64,000 nucleotides of DNA from Isoptericola sp. AK164 (lineage in GTDB: Bacteria; Actinomycetota; Actinomycetes; Actinomycetales; Cellulomonadaceae), in contig NZ_CP119106.1 of NCBI RefSeq assembly GCF_029643425.1, forward strand, positions 2,294,001 to 2,358,000, read 5' to 3'. Below are positions 542 to 5,735 of the stretch, piece after piece. A program made the translations under genes and the position numbers. The first letter of the stretch is position 1; the number at the start of each line of letters is the position of its first letter. Under the pieces are notes generated by a model, which saw only the letters and a program-made list of their open reading frames with translations, searched no databases and had not been told where the DNA came from.

Positions 542-1735
542 TCACGGGGCGGGCGGCGCGACGGTGTCCGTGGTGGCCAGCAGGTAGCCGGAGTAGTCCG
601 ACAGCACGATGCTGCCGGCGTCGGTCACGGCGACGGGCGCCACGAGGTCGCCGGTGCCCTCGGGGTCGTAGGCCTCCGCCACGTTCCCGGTGACGACGTT
701 GTGCGCCCGCAGGGAGTCGCCGACCCGCAGGTAGACCAGCGCGCCGCTGACGCCCTCGATCGTGGTCTCCTGCGCGGTCGAGGTGGTCCACAGCTCGGTG
801 CCCGCGGCGTCGAGCCCGCGCAGCCCGTCGGCGTCGACGGTGACGACGGTGCCGGTGGTCGGGTCGACGCCGACGTCGGTGAACCCGTCCGCCAGGACCG
901 TGCCGTCGTCGAGGTCGACCAGCGCCTCCGAGGCCTCACCGGTGCGCAGCCGCACGGTGCCCGGGCCCGGTGACGGCTCGAGGGACGCCGTCACGGCCCC
1001 GGCCTCCCAGCCCTGGTCGGCGGTGTCGAGGCGCCAGCGGGCCTCGCCGTCCGCGGTGCGGGCGACGACCTCGTCACCGTCCCGGACGAGCACGGTGCCG
1101 CGGTGCTCCCCCAGCACCGACACGTCGGCCTCCAGCGTGACCGGCTCGCCGGTGTCGGCGTCCAGGACGACGCGCGACCCGGCCGCGTCCGCCGGCTCGG
1201 ACCCGCTCTCGGCGAACACCAGCCCCGGCCCGGCCGGCGGTCCGGGGACGTCGACCGGTCCCCAGACCGGCTCGCCGGTGCGCAGGTCGTAGGCCGTCGC
1301 GGTCGTGGACTCGGCCGCGGTGTCGGCCCCGGTGTCGGCCAGGACCGCGAGCGCCCGGCCTGCCGAGGTCGTCGTGACGGCGTGGCCGGTGCCGCTCGCG
1401 GGACGTTCGGCGCTCCACAGCGCCTCGCCGTCGGCCGCGACGGCGGTGAACCGCTGCAGTCCGTCGCGCTCGTCGACGCCCAGGGCGATGCCGTCGGCGG
1501 TCTGCGGGGCGGCGTCCCAGCCGGGGTCGACGAGGCGCACGGTGTCCACCTGCAGCGGGACGCGCAGCCCGTCGGTGTCGACGGCGGGCGGGGCCTCGAC
1601 GGCGGTGTCCGGGGTGCGCTCGATCGGTACCGTTGCGGCGTCGGGCGTCGCGGGGTCGTCGGTGCAGCCGGCGAGCACCAGGGCGGCGGTCAGCGGCCCG
1701 GCGAGCAGAGCGCCACGGCGGATCGGGGGCGTCAC
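542..1735 (-). CDS. Beta-propeller (PQQ-like repeat) lipoprotein
   Basis: This protein of about 397 residues starts with GTG at 1735-1733, overlapping the TGA of the upstream CcdA-like gene by 4 bp (GTGA). The N-terminus has a lipoprotein signal with lipobox LAGC, so the mature protein should be lipid-anchored outside the membrane. The rest is Asp/Thr/Val-rich, with repeated blade-like patterns (ALWSAERPASG, ARWRLDTADQG, ELWTTST, VVTVDADGLRGLDAAG) typical of PQQ-type beta-propellers. No catalytic residues are evident. A binding or scaffolding role is inferred. As third gene of the DsbA-like/CcdA-like operon it may dock the thiol-redox partners, but that is speculation. Confidence 0.75.
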   Translation of the reverse strand: MTPPIRRGALLAGPLTAALVLAGCTDDPATPDAATVPIERTPDTAVEAPPAVDTDGLRVPLQVDTVRLVDPGWDAAPQTADGIALGVDERDGLQRFTAVAADGEALWSAERPASGTGHAVTTTSAGRALAVLADTGADTAAESTTATAYDLRTGEPVWGPVDVPGPPAGPGLVFAESGSEPADAAGSRVVLDADTGEPVTLEADVSVLGEHRGTVLVRDGDEVVARTADGEARWRLDTADQGWEAGAVTASLEPSPGPGTVRLRTGEASEALVDLDDGTVLADGFTDVGVDPTTGTVVTVDADGLRGLDAAGTELWTTSTAQETTIEGVSGALVYLRVGDSLRAHNVVTGNVAEAYDPEGTGDLVAPVAVTDAGSIVLSDYSGYLLATTDTVAPPAP

Positions 1736-2592
1736 GAGGCCTCCTCGGTCTCGGGGGCGGCGGCCCGCTGGGCACGGGCCCGGTGGCGCGTCCAGACGAC
1801 GACCACGACCACGGCGACGACCAGCACGAGGGCGACGTCGAGGACGGGGTGCGCCAGCAGGGCGCCCTGACCCTGCAGCCAGGCCTGCGTGCCGACGGGC
1901 AGGAGCTCGGGCATCCCGACGAGCCCGTTGGTGACCCAGAACAGCACGCCGACCGCGATCAGCAGCAGACCGGTGACGATCGAGGTGGTGTGCAGCTCGC
2001 GACCGAGCACCCGCACCGTCCGGCCGCGCAGCACGGACCGGCCGCGCTCGCCGAGCCGCCCCCAGGCCGCGGCGAGGGCGAGCAGCGGCAGGACCATGCC
2101 GGCCGCGTAGACGGCGAGCAGCAGCCCGGCGCCGACGACGTCGCCCTGCGCGGCGGCGAGGGTGAGCACGGCACCGAGGACGGGCCCGGCGCAGAACCCC
2201 GCCACCCCGCCGGCGGCGCCGAGCAGGAACGTCTTGACCCAGCCGGTGCGCGACGCCGAGGACCGCTGGACCGCCCGGGCGCCGGGCAGCACGCGGGCCG
2301 GGTCGAAGCCGAGGCCGAGCAGCTGCACGACGCCGAGCACGACGAGCAGCACCGCGGCCACGGCGACGACGGTCTCGCGGTGCGTGGCGAACAGCGCCCC
2401 GACCGCCCCGGCGCCGACGCCGAGCGGCACGAGCACGACGACCAGCCCGGCGTAGAAGACGCCGCCGTGGGCCCACAGCCGCGGGCCGGAGCCGACGGTG
2501 GAGGCGAAGAACGCGGGCAGCAGCAGGGCACCGCAGGGGCTCAGCAGCGCCAGCGCTCCCCCGAGGAACGCGGTGAGGAGACCGACGTCCAC
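1732..2592 (-). CDS. CcdA/DsbD-like thiol-disulfide transmembrane transporter
   Basis: The 286-residue polytopic membrane protein has six or more hydrophobic segments. The first helix contains SPCGALLLP (Cys20) and the fourth GFCAGPVLG (Cys134). These are the paired intramembrane cysteines of the CcdA/DsbD transmembrane family, which moves electrons from cytoplasmic thioredoxin to extracytoplasmic thiol proteins. The start lies 1 bp past the stop of the DsbA-like gene and the end overlaps the lipoprotein start, so the three genes form a tight operon. The likely electron acceptor is the upstream CPFC protein. A role in cytochrome c maturation is possible, but no ResB/CcsB or haem-handling gene lies nearby. 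Confidence 0.85.
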   Translation of the reverse strand: MDVGLLTAFLGGALALLSPCGALLLPAFFASTVGSGPRLWAHGGVFYAGLVVVLVPLGVGAGAVGALFATHRETVVAVAAVLLVVLGVVQLLGLGFDPARVLPGARAVQRSSASRTGWVKTFLLGAAGGVAGFCAGPVLGAVLTLAAAQGDVVGAGLLLAVYAAGMVLPLLALAAAWGRLGERGRSVLRGRTVRVLGRELHTTSIVTGLLLIAVGVLFWVTNGLVGMPELLPVGTQAWLQGQGALLAHPVLDVALVLVVAVVVVVVWTRHRARAQRAAAPETEEAS

Positions 2593-2593
2593 G

Positions 2594-3364
2594 TCAGCCC
2601 CTGCTCGCGGCGAGGGCGGTGTCGAAGGCGTCGCGGAAGACCTGGGTCGGCTGGGCGCCCACGATCGGCCGGCCGCCGATCAGGAAGGCGGGCGTGGAGT
2701 AGGCGCCGAGGTCGAGGCCGAGCTGCTCGTTGGCCGCGACGGCGTCGGCGGTCCCGGCCGATCCCAGGTCGCGGGTGAACTGCTCGACGTCCAGCCCCAG
2801 CTCGGCGGCGAGGTCGGTCAGCGCCTCCTCGGAGAGCTCGTCCTCGGAGCGGGTCTCCCCCTCCGGGTACAGGCCCTCGTGGTAGGCCCAGAACTCGTCC
2901 TGCAGCGCGGCGGCGTAGGAGGCGCGGGCGGCGCGCTCGGAGGCCTCGCCGAAGACGTTGACGTCCCGGTACTCGATGCGCAGGTCGCCGGCCGCGGCGT
3001 GCTCGCGCATCTCGGGCAGCGTCTCCTGGCTCCACTGGGCGCAGAACGGGCACTGGTAGTCGGAGAAGACGACCAGCACGACGGGCGCGTCGACCGGGCC
3101 GTCCGTGAGGGGGTCGTCCGGGTCGCGGCGCTCGACCGCGGCGGTGTCGACCTCGGCGGGCCCCTGGACGTCGGTCGGGGCGTCGCCCGGGTCGGCGTCC
3201 TCCGGCGCGGTCGCCGTCGTGCCCGGGCCGGCGCCCGGCGCGGCGGGGGCGTCGCCGTCGGACGACCACACCACGGCGACGAGCAGGACGAGGGTCAGGA
3301 CGGCGACGACGACGGCGGGCAGGACCCACGGCCGCGAGGCGGTCGGGGTGCGGGGGTCGGCCAC
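2594..3364 (-). CDS. Membrane-anchored DsbA-like thioredoxin-fold protein
   Basis: I chose the GTG at 3364-3362 because GGAGG lies 5 nt upstream; an ATG at 3415 exists but lies inside the operator. The 256-residue product has one N-terminal membrane segment (about residues 14-33), an Ala/Asp/Pro-rich linker, and a thioredoxin fold with FSDYQCPFCAQW (Cys105, Cys108). The helical insertion and the late cis-Pro region around YSTPAFLIGG fit the DsbA/BdbD family. It should oxidise, reduce or isomerise disulfides outside the cytoplasm and exchange electrons with the CcdA-like protein encoded next. It is the first gene of the leftward operon driven from the palindromic operator. Confidence 0.88.
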   Translation of the reverse strand: MADPRTPTASRPWVLPAVVVAVLTLVLLVAVVWSSDGDAPAAPGAGPGTTATAPEDADPGDAPTDVQGPAEVDTAAVERRDPDDPLTDGPVDAPVVLVVFSDYQCPFCAQWSQETLPEMREHAAAGDLRIEYRDVNVFGEASERAARASYAAALQDEFWAYHEGLYPEGETRSEDELSEEALTDLAAELGLDVEQFTRDLGSAGTADAVAANEQLGLDLGAYSTPAFLIGGRPIVGAQPTQVFRDAFDTALAASRG

Positions 3365-3397
3365 GGGTTCCTCCGGGGAGATGGTGACGACGTGCGG

Positions 3398-3435
3398 TAG
3401 TCGACTATGCACCATAGTCGACTATGGTGCATAGT
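3398..3435. promoter_or_regulatory. Large palindromic operator between divergent operons, probable BlaI site
   Basis: A perfect 32-bp palindrome spans 3404-3435. It consists of ACTATGCACCATAGT and its reverse complement sharing TAGTCGACTA in the centre (3415-3424), and a second TAGTCGACTA lies at 3398-3407. BlaI-family dimers bind dyads built on TANTA-type half sites, and a blaI-like gene is the second gene of the rightward operon, so this is the expected autoregulatory site. Repeated half sites could load two or more dimers and silence both directions. The ATG at 3424 of the rightward gene lies inside the palindrome. The palindrome is directly visible; the ligand is inferred. Confidence 0.75.
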
Positions 3436-3981
3436 GACCTCGTGACGCTCGAGACACCATCCCGCACCACGTGGCGCGAGACCGCCGGGCTCGCCGTGCT
3501 CGGCCTGCGCGCCTGGACCCCCCGCCAGCGCGTCGTCGCCGTCGTCGCGGCGCTGGCCGTCGGGCTGCTCATCGGGTGGGCGACCGTGCTCCTCCCCAAC
3601 CCGGTCTTCTCCCGCGAGATCCCGCCGGTGTGGTGGAACTACCCCGTGTGGGTCCTCACCTCCGTCCTGTCCGGGATGCTCGTGGCGACCTACGTGCGGT
3701 CCGCCGCACCGTCCGACGACGAGACCCGGACCAGCCGCCTGGGCATGGCCGGCGGGGTCCTCGCCTGGTTCGCCGTCGGCTGCCCGGTGTGCAACAAGCT
3801 GGCGCTGCTCGCCCTCGGCTACAGCGGCGCGATCACCTGGTTCGCGCCGGTCCAGCCGTTCCTGGGCCTGGCCGCGCTCGCGCTGACCGCCGTCGCGCTC
3901 GTGTGGCGGCTGCGCGGACAGGTCGCGTGCCCCACGCCGGCGGCCGCACCGACGTCCGCCCCGGAGGGAGCCGCGCGATGA
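3424..3981 (+). CDS. Four-helix membrane protein with CPVC motif, unknown function
   Basis: The protein of about 185 residues has predicted membrane segments near 36-57, 72-92, 106-134 and 142-163. The third carries AVGCPVCNKLALLALGYSG (Cys120, Cys123), a thioredoxin-like CxxC placed at a membrane boundary; another Cys lies at 169. I do not recognise a characterised family. ATG 3424 lies in the operator without a Shine-Dalgarno sequence, so either translation is leaderless or the GTG at 3442 is used. The stop overlaps the blaI-like ATG (ATGA at 3978-3981). The motif and the divergent DsbA/CcdA operon suggest membrane thiol redox chemistry, which is inference. Confidence 0.7.
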   Translation: MVHSDLVTLETPSRTTWRETAGLAVLGLRAWTPRQRVVAVVAALAVGLLIGWATVLLPNPVFSREIPPVWWNYPVWVLTSVLSGMLVATYVRSAAPSDDETRTSRLGMAGGVLAWFAVGCPVCNKLALLALGYSGAITWFAPVQPFLGLAALALTAVALVWRLRGQVACPTPAAAPTSAPEGAAR

Positions 3982-4370
3982 CCGCACGAGAGACCGACGA
4001 GCCCGCCCGCCTGGGGACCCTGGAGTCCCAGGTCATGGACGTGCTGTGGACCTGCGGCGGCTGCACGATCCGGAACGTCATCGAGCGTCTCGACGGCCGG
4101 CCCGCCTACACCACGATCGCCACCGTGCTCGGCAACCTGGAGCGCAAGGGCTTCGTCGAGCACGTGCGCGAGGGCCGCTCCGCCCGGTACCTGCCCGCCT
4201 CGACCCGGTCCGAGCACGCAGCCGAGGTCATGGAGCACGCGCTCGCCACCAGCGGCGACCGCGCCGCCTCGATCCTGCACTTCGTCGAGGCGATGCCCGA
4301 GAGCGACCGTGCCCTGCTGCGCGACTACCTGGACGGACCGGGCGGACGGTCCGCCCCGGGGACCTCGTGA
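3978..4370 (+). CDS. BlaI/MecI/CopY-family repressor with a CxxC in the DNA-binding domain
   Basis: This 130-residue winged-helix regulator begins in an ATGA overlap and ends in a GTGA overlap with the M56 protease gene. LESQVMDVLW, the recognition region AYTTIATVLGNLERKGFV and the wing EGRSARYLPA match BlaI/MecI. Residues 98-104 (SILHFVE) align with the site where staphylococcal BlaI/MecI are cut (101-102); Phe is conserved here at 102. Unusual is CGGC at 26-29, between helix 1 and the recognition region, where relatives normally have no cysteine pair. It could form a disulfide or bind metal. It likely represses both divergent operons through the 3398-3435 palindrome and is inactivated by M56 cleavage. 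Confidence 0.92.
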   Translation: MTARETDEPARLGTLESQVMDVLWTCGGCTIRNVIERLDGRPAYTTIATVLGNLERKGFVEHVREGRSARYLPASTRSEHAAEVMEHALATSGDRAASILHFVEAMPESDRALLRDYLDGPGGRSAPGTS

Positions 4371-5338
4371 CCCCCGCCGTCGCCGTCCTGGTCGGTCTCG
4401 GCATCGCCCTCGCCGCGCTCGGCGGGCCGTGGCTGGTCCGCCGCGCGGCACCCGCGCTCGTGCGGGCCCCGCTGGTGGCCGCGGTGGCGCTCACCGGCGG
4501 GGTGGTGCTCTGGCTGGCCGCCCTGCTCGCCGTCGGACCGATGCTCGCCTGGACCCTCTCCGGGCCGGCCGTGCTGCCCGGGGCCGCGGGCGCCGTCTGC
4601 CAGCGGTGCCTGGACGCGGCCGACCCGTTCGCCGGCTCCCCCGTCGACACCGCCGTGCCCGTGGTGCTGCTCCTGGTCGGACCGGCTCTGGTGGCTGCCG
4701 TGCTCGCCGCGGTGCTGGGCCGTGAGCTGTGGCACCGGCGGCGGGAGACCGCCCGCACGGCCGCCGCACTCCGGGCCGTCGGCGTCGCCCGCGCCGTGGC
4801 CGGGCACCGGGTGCTGGTCGTGCCCGACGACGCGCCGGCCGCCTTCGCCCTGCCCGCCCGGCACGGCGGCGTCGTCGTGAGCACCGGCGCGCTGGCCTCC
4901 CTGGACGACGCCGGGCTCGCCGCCGTGCTCGCCCACGAGGAGGCCCACCTGCGCCAGCGCCACCACCTCGTGGCCGCGCTCACCGCGGCCCTGGCGACCC
5001 ACCTGCGCTGGGTCCCCGTCGTCGCCGCCGTCGCGGACGCCGTGCCCACCTACCTCGAGATCGCCGCCGACGACGCGGCCCGGCGACGCGTCGGCACCAC
5101 GGCGCTCGCCGGCGCCCTGCTCACGCTCGGCGCCGCGGACCGGTCGACGGTTCCCGCGGCGGCCGGGGCGCTGCACGCGGCCGGCCCGGACCGGATCCGC
5201 CACCTGGTCGCCCCCGGCGCGGGGCGGGCCGGAACCTGGCCCGCCGTCGCCGTCGGGGCCCACCTCGGGGTGCTCGCCGCGGTGTCGCTCGCGGTGCACG
5301 TGCCGTACGTGAGCGCCGTGCTGTCGGGGTGCGCCTGA
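4367..5338 (+). CDS. M56-family membrane metalloprotease (BlaR1-like, no penicillin-binding sensor)
   Basis: The 323-residue protein begins at GTG 4367, overlapping the blaI-like stop. Hydrophobic segments lie near 3-24, 38-65, 97-118 and 294-315. The zinc motif HEEAH is at 190-194, with a likely third ligand Glu231 in EIAADD, as in BlaR1/MecR1 gluzincins. A loop between the second and third segments contains CQRC (Cys78, Cys81), probably extracytoplasmic. There is no C-terminal beta-lactam-binding domain, so the signal is unlikely to be penicillin. Known members cleave their BlaI partner. The CQRC loop and the thiol-redox neighbours suggest oxidation or metal as stimulus, which is inference. 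Confidence 0.9.
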   Translation: MTPAVAVLVGLGIALAALGGPWLVRRAAPALVRAPLVAAVALTGGVVLWLAALLAVGPMLAWTLSGPAVLPGAAGAVCQRCLDAADPFAGSPVDTAVPVVLLLVGPALVAAVLAAVLGRELWHRRRETARTAAALRAVGVARAVAGHRVLVVPDDAPAAFALPARHGGVVVSTGALASLDDAGLAAVLAHEEAHLRQRHHLVAALTAALATHLRWVPVVAAVADAVPTYLEIAADDAARRRVGTTALAGALLTLGAADRSTVPAAAGALHAAGPDRIRHLVAPGAGRAGTWPAVAVGAHLGVLAAVSLAVHVPYVSAVLSGCA

Positions 5339-5339
5339 C

Positions 5340-5735
5340 CTAGGGCCGCGTCCCGGGTCGCGGACCGGCGACCCGCTCGCAGGCGGCCCGGTCCTCCTGC
5401 AGCGCCGCGTGCTGGGCGACGGTATCCGCGCCCGCCTCGAGCGGGTCCTGCGGCCTGGCCTGCGCGCCGGGCCATCCCTGCGCGCGCAGGCACGCCGTCA
5501 CCGTCTCGGCCCACCTCGACTGCGCCGTACGCCGTGCCGCGTGCCGCTCGGCCGGAGCCGCGGCGGACTCGTCCTCCGCCCGGTCCTCGGAACCGGCCAG
5601 CACGAGCCAGGCCGTGGAGACGCGGTCGTCGAGCTCTCGGGGCCGGTCGGCCTCGGACTGCCCGAGCGCTCCGGGCGCGAGACAGGCGCAGGCGGCCAGG
5701 ACACCGGCCAGGACGACGAGGAACCGCCTCTTCAC
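5340..5735 (-). CDS. Small secreted or lipid-anchored protein, unknown
   Basis: The protein of about 131 residues has a clear signal peptide (MKRRFLVVLAGVLAACACLA). LAAC could be a lipobox, but the LAPGALGQ cleavage context also fits ordinary secretion. The mature part is charged, Ala/Glu/Arg-rich and has two late cysteines that may form a disulfide. It stops with TAG immediately beside the convergent M56 gene, leaving a single-base gap. An inverted repeat lies upstream (5777-5789). I recognise no family. The biased sequence makes coding likely because the signal peptide is so well formed. Confidence 0.55.
   Translation of the reverse strand: MKRRFLVVLAGVLAACACLAPGALGQSEADRPRELDDRVSTAWLVLAGSEDRAEDESAAAPAERHAARRTAQSRWAETVTACLRAQGWPGAQARPQDPLEAGADTVAQHAALQEDRAACERVAGPRPGTRP

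Follow-up and report, generated by a model that had tools for sequence, protein, structure and literature searches.

A BlaI/M56 protease switch beside a thiol relay in Isoptericola sp. AK164 and its possible part in extracytoplasmic reactive-sulfur sensing

In staphylococci, the repressors BlaI and MecI act at a dyad operator located between divergent operons. To our knowledge, the signal sensed by BlaR1-like proteases that lack a penicillin-binding domain is largely unknown. Such proteases are frequent in actinobacteria, and the M56 model found matches in 274 of 396 genomes (E values of up to 1e-5), of which the weaker ones may include HtpX-type M48 proteases. For BlaR1 itself, both ends are described as lying outside the cell, the EL1 loop (residues 56 to 96, between helices 2 and 3) is displaced by the beta-lactam, and BlaI is cut at Asn101/Phe102 (PMC9834060). 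Here, we describe a six-gene cluster at positions 542..5338 of a 64,000-nucleotide stretch of Isoptericola sp. AK164 (the window; contig NZ_CP119106.1, positions 2,294,001 to 2,358,000), in which a protease of this kind and a BlaI-type repressor adjoin genes for a DsbA-like protein, a CcdA-like electron transporter, a membrane protein with a CPVC motif (CPVC protein) and a lipoprotein. Here, the switch by which staphylococci sense penicillin appears to have been put to a new use. From the comparisons below, we give a little better than an even chance to a transmembrane thiol-sensing, BlaR1-like switch in control of the extracytoplasmic part of the response to reactive sulfur (sulfane sulfur). 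As likely sensing residues, targets, an operator and a chemistry can all be named here, the question of what these proteases sense becomes directly testable.

The closest composition described is the CYT module, reported in 2018 from the Antarctic Arthrobacter plasmids pA40H2 and pA58H2, with a BlaI-type regulator, CcdA, the CPVC protein, DsbA and DsrE; it adjoins a module of CsoR, sulfur dioxygenase, rhodanese and TauE, and energy gain from sulfur oxidation was proposed (PMC6305408). An initial annotation of the window, made from the letters alone, knew of no described system of this composition. This needs correcting, since the version without the protease had been described by then (PMC6305408); of the set that contains the protease, we found no account in a literature search that left subscription journals largely outside.

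The cluster was followed through the CPVC protein. In the scan of named genomes 189 relatives were confirmed, the best 80 of which were used, and these together with 22 unnamed loci, two plasmid loci and the window made up 105 loci. BlaI was present at 79 of them. The M56 gene accompanied it at 73 of the 79, DsbA together with CcdA at 75 and the lipoprotein at 52, while among the 26 loci without BlaI the figures were zero, four and one (a lipoprotein relative). The joint conservation that the initial annotation had named as support was recovered across actinobacteria, and comparison shows BlaI, the M56 protease, the CPVC protein, DsbA and CcdA as one co-conserved unit with a shared, predicted BlaI-type operator. 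Within the order, CPVC relatives were found in 23 of 198 genomes (the window's own counted), and all six genes were present in 9 of the other 22 neighborhoods, that is, in 10 of the 198 genomes.

The predicted shared operator (3398-3439) contains two TAGTCGACTA cores (3398-3407 and 3415-3424) and a 32-bp perfect palindrome (3404-3435). In the whole genome (3,576,703 bp), exact TAGTCGACTA is found only at this operator, as is TAGTNNACTA, and BlaI is the sole PF03965 match, so the circuit looks local in this strain. Across the loci, the site TAGT-N1-2-ACTA appeared within the 310 bases searched at the CPVC start in 59 of the 79 BlaI-containing loci versus 1 of the 26 lacking BlaI and 22 of 3,569 background windows, the background being other windows of the BlaI-containing loci. 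All six loci with BlaI but no M56 gene fall within the 20 that lack the site. The P values in this work ignore shared descent; when CPVC proteins were collapsed at 80% identity, the contrast held (43 of 60 with BlaI versus 0 of 22 without). Another 23 BlaI-type sites were detected, of which 14 stand 23 to 245 bp before a displaced dsbA gene, 2 before a BlaI or lipoprotein gene and 1, in L064, before a CstR-type gene, whereas the one in L085 precedes no gene of our search panel. The remaining five, in the island of L079-L082/L164, precede a short operon whose last gene is of the CstR type according to the annotation of L164, and in L064, L080 and L164 the same promoter region also carries a CsoR/CstR-type site. 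BlaI-type sites on both arms, and before dsbA where this gene has moved, agree with the arrangement first proposed, divergent operons around one operator, on which BlaI probably sits and represses both.

The protease gene (4367-5338, plus strand) codes for 323 amino acids and belongs to the M56/M48 type (PF05569, 1.6e-7, 31.3 bits with a cutoff of 31; PF01435, 2.3e-10), with HEEAH at residues 190 to 194. H190, E191, H194 and E231 were invariant across 47 aligned cluster proteases, and HExxH was not found in 2 of 74 cluster protease sequences. The protein terminates after its last helix and Pfam found no penicillin-binding sensor on it, in agreement with the initial annotation. Two places carry cysteines, CQRC (Cys78 and Cys81; 4598-4609, plus strand) in the predicted extracytoplasmic loop between transmembrane helices 2 and 3 (TM2 and TM3) and the C-terminal Cys322 (5330-5332, plus strand), also predicted to be extracytoplasmic. 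Counted per alignment column over all the sequences found, the loop pair is conserved (C78 in 73 and C81 in 72 of 74 cluster proteases), as is Cys322 (69 of 74, with four gaps and one Ala), which had been overlooked at first. Lysine plus arginine residues averaged 3.5 for the TM1-TM2 loop and 6.2 for the part following TM3, compared to 1.5 for the TM2-TM3 loop and 0.04 for the tail, which by the positive-inside rule would place both cysteine positions outside. The AlphaFold model (predicted local distance difference test [pLDDT] of 91) has the helix order of BlaR1, with Cys78 and Cys81 within a short helix (residues 72 to 85). Similarity to BlaR1 chains was weak (E value of 0.25) and limited to the protease domain, so the correspondence of the loops rests on helix order rather than on a loop alignment; by that order, the cysteines would occupy the place of the BlaR1 extracellular signaling loop.

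A CxxC in the loop before TM3 was specific to the cluster proteases: 71 of 74 had it, with two of the remainder not scorable, versus none of 67 other M56-like proteins. These 67 were the best-scoring matches of the M56 model outside the cluster rather than a random sample (27 loci plus 40 taken in rank order), with eight partial matches left out and loops located by a hydropathy rule. Among them, 20 had cysteines in both loop and tail, 10 in the loop only, 3 in the tail only and 34 in neither (P = 5e-7), a covariation which suggests that the two pair. The 20 proteins with both (from the series L136-L162 and L178-L217) might represent a wider class of disulfide-linked M56 receptors. For the cluster proteases themselves, we tentatively propose, at somewhat under an even chance, a subfamily of transmembrane reactive-sulfur or redox receptors in which a three-cysteine extracytoplasmic switch (the loop CxxC plus the C-terminal Cys) takes the place of the BlaR1 penicillin sensor and signals the presence of polysulfide or disulfide on the outer side through destruction of a repressor on the inner side. 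An ordinary cell-wall or beta-lactam-type BlaI regulon, with cysteines of merely structural value, would agree with the homology to BlaR1/BlaI and with the loop and tail pair of those 20 outside proteins; we regard it as very improbable, as the protease has no penicillin-binding domain, the operator is found at only one place in the genome and the targets are thiol-relay genes.

The repressor gene (3978-4370, plus strand; PF03965, 1.4e-24; nearest solved chain, 2g9w) encodes a BlaI/MecI/CopY-family protein with a putative cleavage site at H101-F102. F102 is present in 75 of 79 BlaI sequences; at residue 101, His was found in 55, and Asn is outside the five commonest residues. The CGGC at residues 26 to 29 was not supported as a conserved sensor and did not behave like the protease cysteines, since only 5 of the 73 BlaI proteins beside an M56 gene have two cysteines at this turn (the window, L053, L036, L099 and L102). 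In the window, it could be a second, lineage-specific sensor. On the other hand, 4 of the 6 BlaI proteins without an M56 gene have a CPx3C pair there. In these four loci (L091, L103, L108 and L112), the BlaI gene follows the CPVC gene with no adjoining M56 gene, the pair lies in the turn that follows helix 1, and the usual operator is missing at the CPVC promoters. The cleavage-site Phe is missing in three of the six, all three among these four. Although numbers are small, this suggests that repressors without a protease may sense thiol agents directly; if the proposed switch is real, the repressor may have taken over sensing in these lines.

The other four genes include those of the putative relay. 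The DsbA-like protein (2594-3364, minus strand; PF01323, 5e-18; nearest solved chains, DsbA 4pwo/4pwp and 7unn) has a thioredoxin fold, an N-terminal hydrophobic segment and CPFC. The CcdA/DsbD-type transmembrane electron transporter (1732-2592, minus strand; PF02683, 1e-11; 1.1e-11 to the solved CcdA structure 5vkv) carries Cys20 and Cys134. The CPVC protein (3442-3981, plus strand) is a multi-helix membrane protein of no named family with GCPVCNK and a third invariant cysteine, modeled by AlphaFold with a pLDDT of 84; no Pfam family exceeded its cutoff. Likely GTG starts, at 3364 for dsbA and at 3442 for the CPVC gene, were chosen with a codon-usage gene caller. The lipoprotein (397 amino acids with a lipobox; 542-1735, minus strand) has no Pfam match, and its repetitive W/DG pattern looks like that of a beta-propeller. 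All six open reading frames, their domains and the cysteine motifs were found in the window as initially annotated. The relay cysteines are nearly invariant: C122 and C125 of DsbA each in 96 of 98 sequences, C20 and C134 of CcdA in 84 and 85 of 86, and C120 and C123 of the CPVC protein in 105 of 106, together with its C169 in all 106 (numbering from 3424), another cysteine missed at first. The claim of cysteine pairs in five of the six proteins is literally true of the window; among orthologues, however, one of these pairs is not conserved and the other four are.

At the loci without BlaI, a different site was found at the CPVC gene. ATACC-N6-GGTAT (at most one mismatch) was present in 12 of these 26 versus none of the 79 with BlaI and 36 of 4,587 background windows, and the contrast again held after the 80% collapse (10 of 22 versus 0 of 60). 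The sulfane-sulfur sensor of Streptomyces coelicolor is reported to use this site, but the operators of copper CsoR/RicR look alike (PMC7533328), so we listed the CsoR-family proteins of the 12 genomes and of the window's genome. Each of the 12 has a CsoR-family protein without the copper His, and six have exactly one CsoR-family protein, His-less in all six (no completeness value being given for two of these genomes). Copper CsoR proteins have this His four residues before the second Cys. CsoR-family proteins beside the named loci are His-less as well, but they were sought with a His-less query that would under-detect copper types and therefore say less. A second His-less CsoR-family protein was also seen in the window's genome (G000:C1:3377910-3378137, L240), away from the sulfur operon mentioned below.

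Sulfur genes are also found around the cluster. Plasmid and island copies adjoin genes for MBL-rhodanese, rhodanese, TauE, DsrE, DUF302 or a CsoR-family protein, and of 10 plasmid loci of CPVC relatives inspected (among 79 records matched), 5 are beside sulfur genes. Of the 80 named loci, tblastn found MBL-rhodanese in 16, TauE in 13, a rhodanese/DUF2892 protein in 10 and a CsoR-family gene in 17; genome-wide, the persulfide-dioxygenase-like MBL-rhodanese gave 42 matches in 99 genomes, at a threshold stricter than that of the locus search. Neighboring genes were predicted with the same codon-usage caller at 58 BlaI-containing loci, out of 70 kept after dropping 10 near-identical ones, and 420 of their 474 proteins (three of four batches, 54 left out) were scanned with Pfam, comparing the 25 commonest families per batch. 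Rhodanese, in 20 of the 420, was the commonest family among those listed in the three batches (genome-wide, 289 matches in 39 genomes, about 7 each), and thioredoxin was found in 10 neighbors in the first two. A close MBL-rhodanese was present in 6 of 10 genomes with the BlaI cluster versus 22 of 188 others (P = 7e-4), or 28 of 188 others when six weaker matches were included (P = 0.002), with genome sets entered by hand from earlier searches. The window's own genome has an operon of CsoR-type, TauE, rhodanese and MBL-rhodanese genes about 510 kb away, preceded by two CsoR/CstR-type sites, one of them mismatched.

Several observations weigh against a sulfane-sulfur role. No panel sulfur gene (CstR-type repressor, MBL-rhodanese, rhodanese or TauE) is present in the 64-kb window, and for only 23 of the 79 BlaI-containing loci did the fetched stretch include a sulfur gene of the panel or a CstR-like gene, some contigs being short. 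The 13 genomes of the order with a CPVC gene but no BlaI are not enriched in MBL-rhodanese, as a close match was present in 1 of 13 and any match, weaker ones included, in 3 of 13. In addition, a single mobile island accounts for several loci as near-identical copies. Among the plasmid loci, four are beside metal genes (one also with rhodanese next to the CPVC gene) and one beside neither kind. Six of the 12 genomes with the CstR/CsoR-type site also carry copper-type CsoR proteins, and the His-less proteins are called persulfide sensors by analogy.

The remaining 56 BlaI-containing loci, with no panel sulfur gene in the fetched stretch, are compatible with the view of the initial annotation, a general response to extracytoplasmic disulfide stress in which the protease would respond to disulfide state by inducing a reductive Dsb relay, sulfur genes being merely frequent neighbors. 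The DsbA plus CcdA composition and the conserved, putative sensor cysteines also speak for it. We give it about one chance in four, given the swap of regulator to CstR/CsoR-type operators, rhodanese as the commonest neighbor family and the BlaI-type sites before CstR-type genes. Less probable still is that the cysteines bind Cu(I) or another thiol-binding metal and that disulfides made by copper are repaired by the relay, in the manner of the proteobacterial Scs proteins, which reportedly tie a DsbA-like isomerase to copper. The metal genes beside the four plasmid loci (P-type ATPases, DUF305 and a copper-binding protein) speak for a metal, and two of these loci have BlaI and M56. So does a weak resemblance of the CPVC protein to MerT, with PF02411 below threshold in the window (15 bits, cutoff of 32.9) and matched at E values of up to 0.01 in 3 of 58 relatives (best, 0.0062). 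However, an E1-E2 ATPase was found in just 2 of 140 neighbors of the third batch and was not among the 25 families listed for the first two, and the sole CsoR-family proteins of the six BlaI-free genomes lack the copper His, as do, within the bias of the His-less query, those beside the named loci. The initial annotation had proposed that the protease senses disulfide state or a thiol-active metal; the wiring of the switch to a thiol-disulfide relay is supported, while gene context and regulator swap point to sulfane sulfur over generic disulfide stress or metal. The most economical reading of the loci would be an extracytoplasmic thiol relay for sulfane sulfur or the disulfides made by it, with either a cytoplasmic CstR-type sensor or an outward-facing BlaI/M56 sensor as its switch.

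Such a circuit could work as follows. With BlaI on the operator, both divergent operons would be repressed. The zinc site of the protease would be cytoplasmic, with Cys78 and Cys81 (loop 2) and Cys322 exposed outside, where polysulfide, persulfide or another thiol oxidant would form or rearrange a disulfide among the three; polysulfides are described as driving protein disulfide formation (PMC11921322). The change would move the loop, as beta-lactam binding moves EL1 of BlaR1, and the protease would then cleave BlaI before Phe102, allowing expression of both operons. Electrons from cytoplasmic thioredoxin would travel through CcdA to the DsbA-like protein. Outside, the latter would reduce persulfides or incorrect disulfides, and it could close the circuit by re-reducing the sensor loop as well. 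The CPVC protein may transfer either electrons or a sulfur atom through the membrane, in the direction of the cytoplasmic pathway of persulfide dioxygenase, rhodanese and TauE, which in this genome is the separate CstR-type operon about 510 kb away.

The cluster seems to be mobile. A near-identical stretch (97 to 99%) of about 7.4 kb or more surrounds it in Thermocrispum, Cellulosimicrobium, Microlunatus, Haematomicrobium and a Microbacterium metagenome-assembled genome, indicating recent horizontal transfer between distant actinobacteria. In these five genera (L072, L079, L080, L081 and L082), the stretch spans about 7.4 to 16.5 kb, and four of them have sulfur genes beyond a CsoR-type gene. 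The sample includes four further genomes of the window's genus, and both the CPVC gene and the MBL-rhodanese of the distant sulfur operon are missing from these. The cluster is present in Isoptericola sediminis, at 67 to 91% protein identity and with eight further flanking genes in common on both sides. In L050, L051 and L052, the CPVC gene is separated from the usual run of dsbA, ccdA and lipoprotein genes by another DsbA gene and another lipoprotein gene. Directly downstream from the protease gene, the window encodes an exported-looking protein of 131 amino acids (5340-5735, minus strand), with no family above cutoff and no tblastn match in the other 104 loci.

Compared to known systems, the locus shares with staphylococcal BlaR1/BlaI and MecR1/MecI an M56 protease with an adjoining PF03965 repressor and an extracytoplasmic loop before TM3, as well as, with BlaR1/BlaI, the Phe at the presumed cleavage position; a predicted dyad site is conserved here between the divergent operons. 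It differs in having CxxC and a C-terminal Cys in place of a C-terminal penicillin-binding domain, and in that the operator is flanked by DsbA, CcdA, CPVC and lipoprotein genes instead of a beta-lactamase. ScsABCD, the suppressors of copper sensitivity, likewise combine a DsbA-like protein with a DsbD-like partner, but with other proteins and other regulation. The CYT module has its COG3682 (BlaI-type) regulator, CcdA, CPVC protein and DsbA all represented in the window, the CPVC protein being apparently the second CcdA of its description; it has no M56 protease and a DsrE gene in the lipoprotein's place, and an operator, a cysteine sensor or a switch are not part of the account in the section dealing with the module (PMC6305408). 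DsrE had no match in the 64-kb window. The sulfane-sulfur circuit of S. coelicolor and the CstR/CST operon of Staphylococcus aureus match the sulfur neighbors in their kinds of genes, but their sensor and enzymes are cytoplasmic (PMC7533328, PMC5480029). The S. coelicolor operator is the one found at the CPVC gene of BlaI-less relatives; CcdA is unmentioned in the main texts of both papers, and BlaI in that of the former (PMC7533328, PMC5480029). In the SoxS/SoxV/SoxW relay of sulfur oxidizers, CcdA-type and Dsb-type proteins also take part in extracytoplasmic sulfur chemistry, although this thiol relay is described as serving the SoxYZ carrier, with sulfur oxidation under SoxR (PMC10451225). 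If the proposed reading is correct, the protease would be the outward-facing partner of the cytoplasmic persulfide sensor CstR. Persulfide sensors such as CstR, BigR and SoxR act inside the cell, and bacteria would then gain an extracytoplasmic sensor of reactive sulfur.

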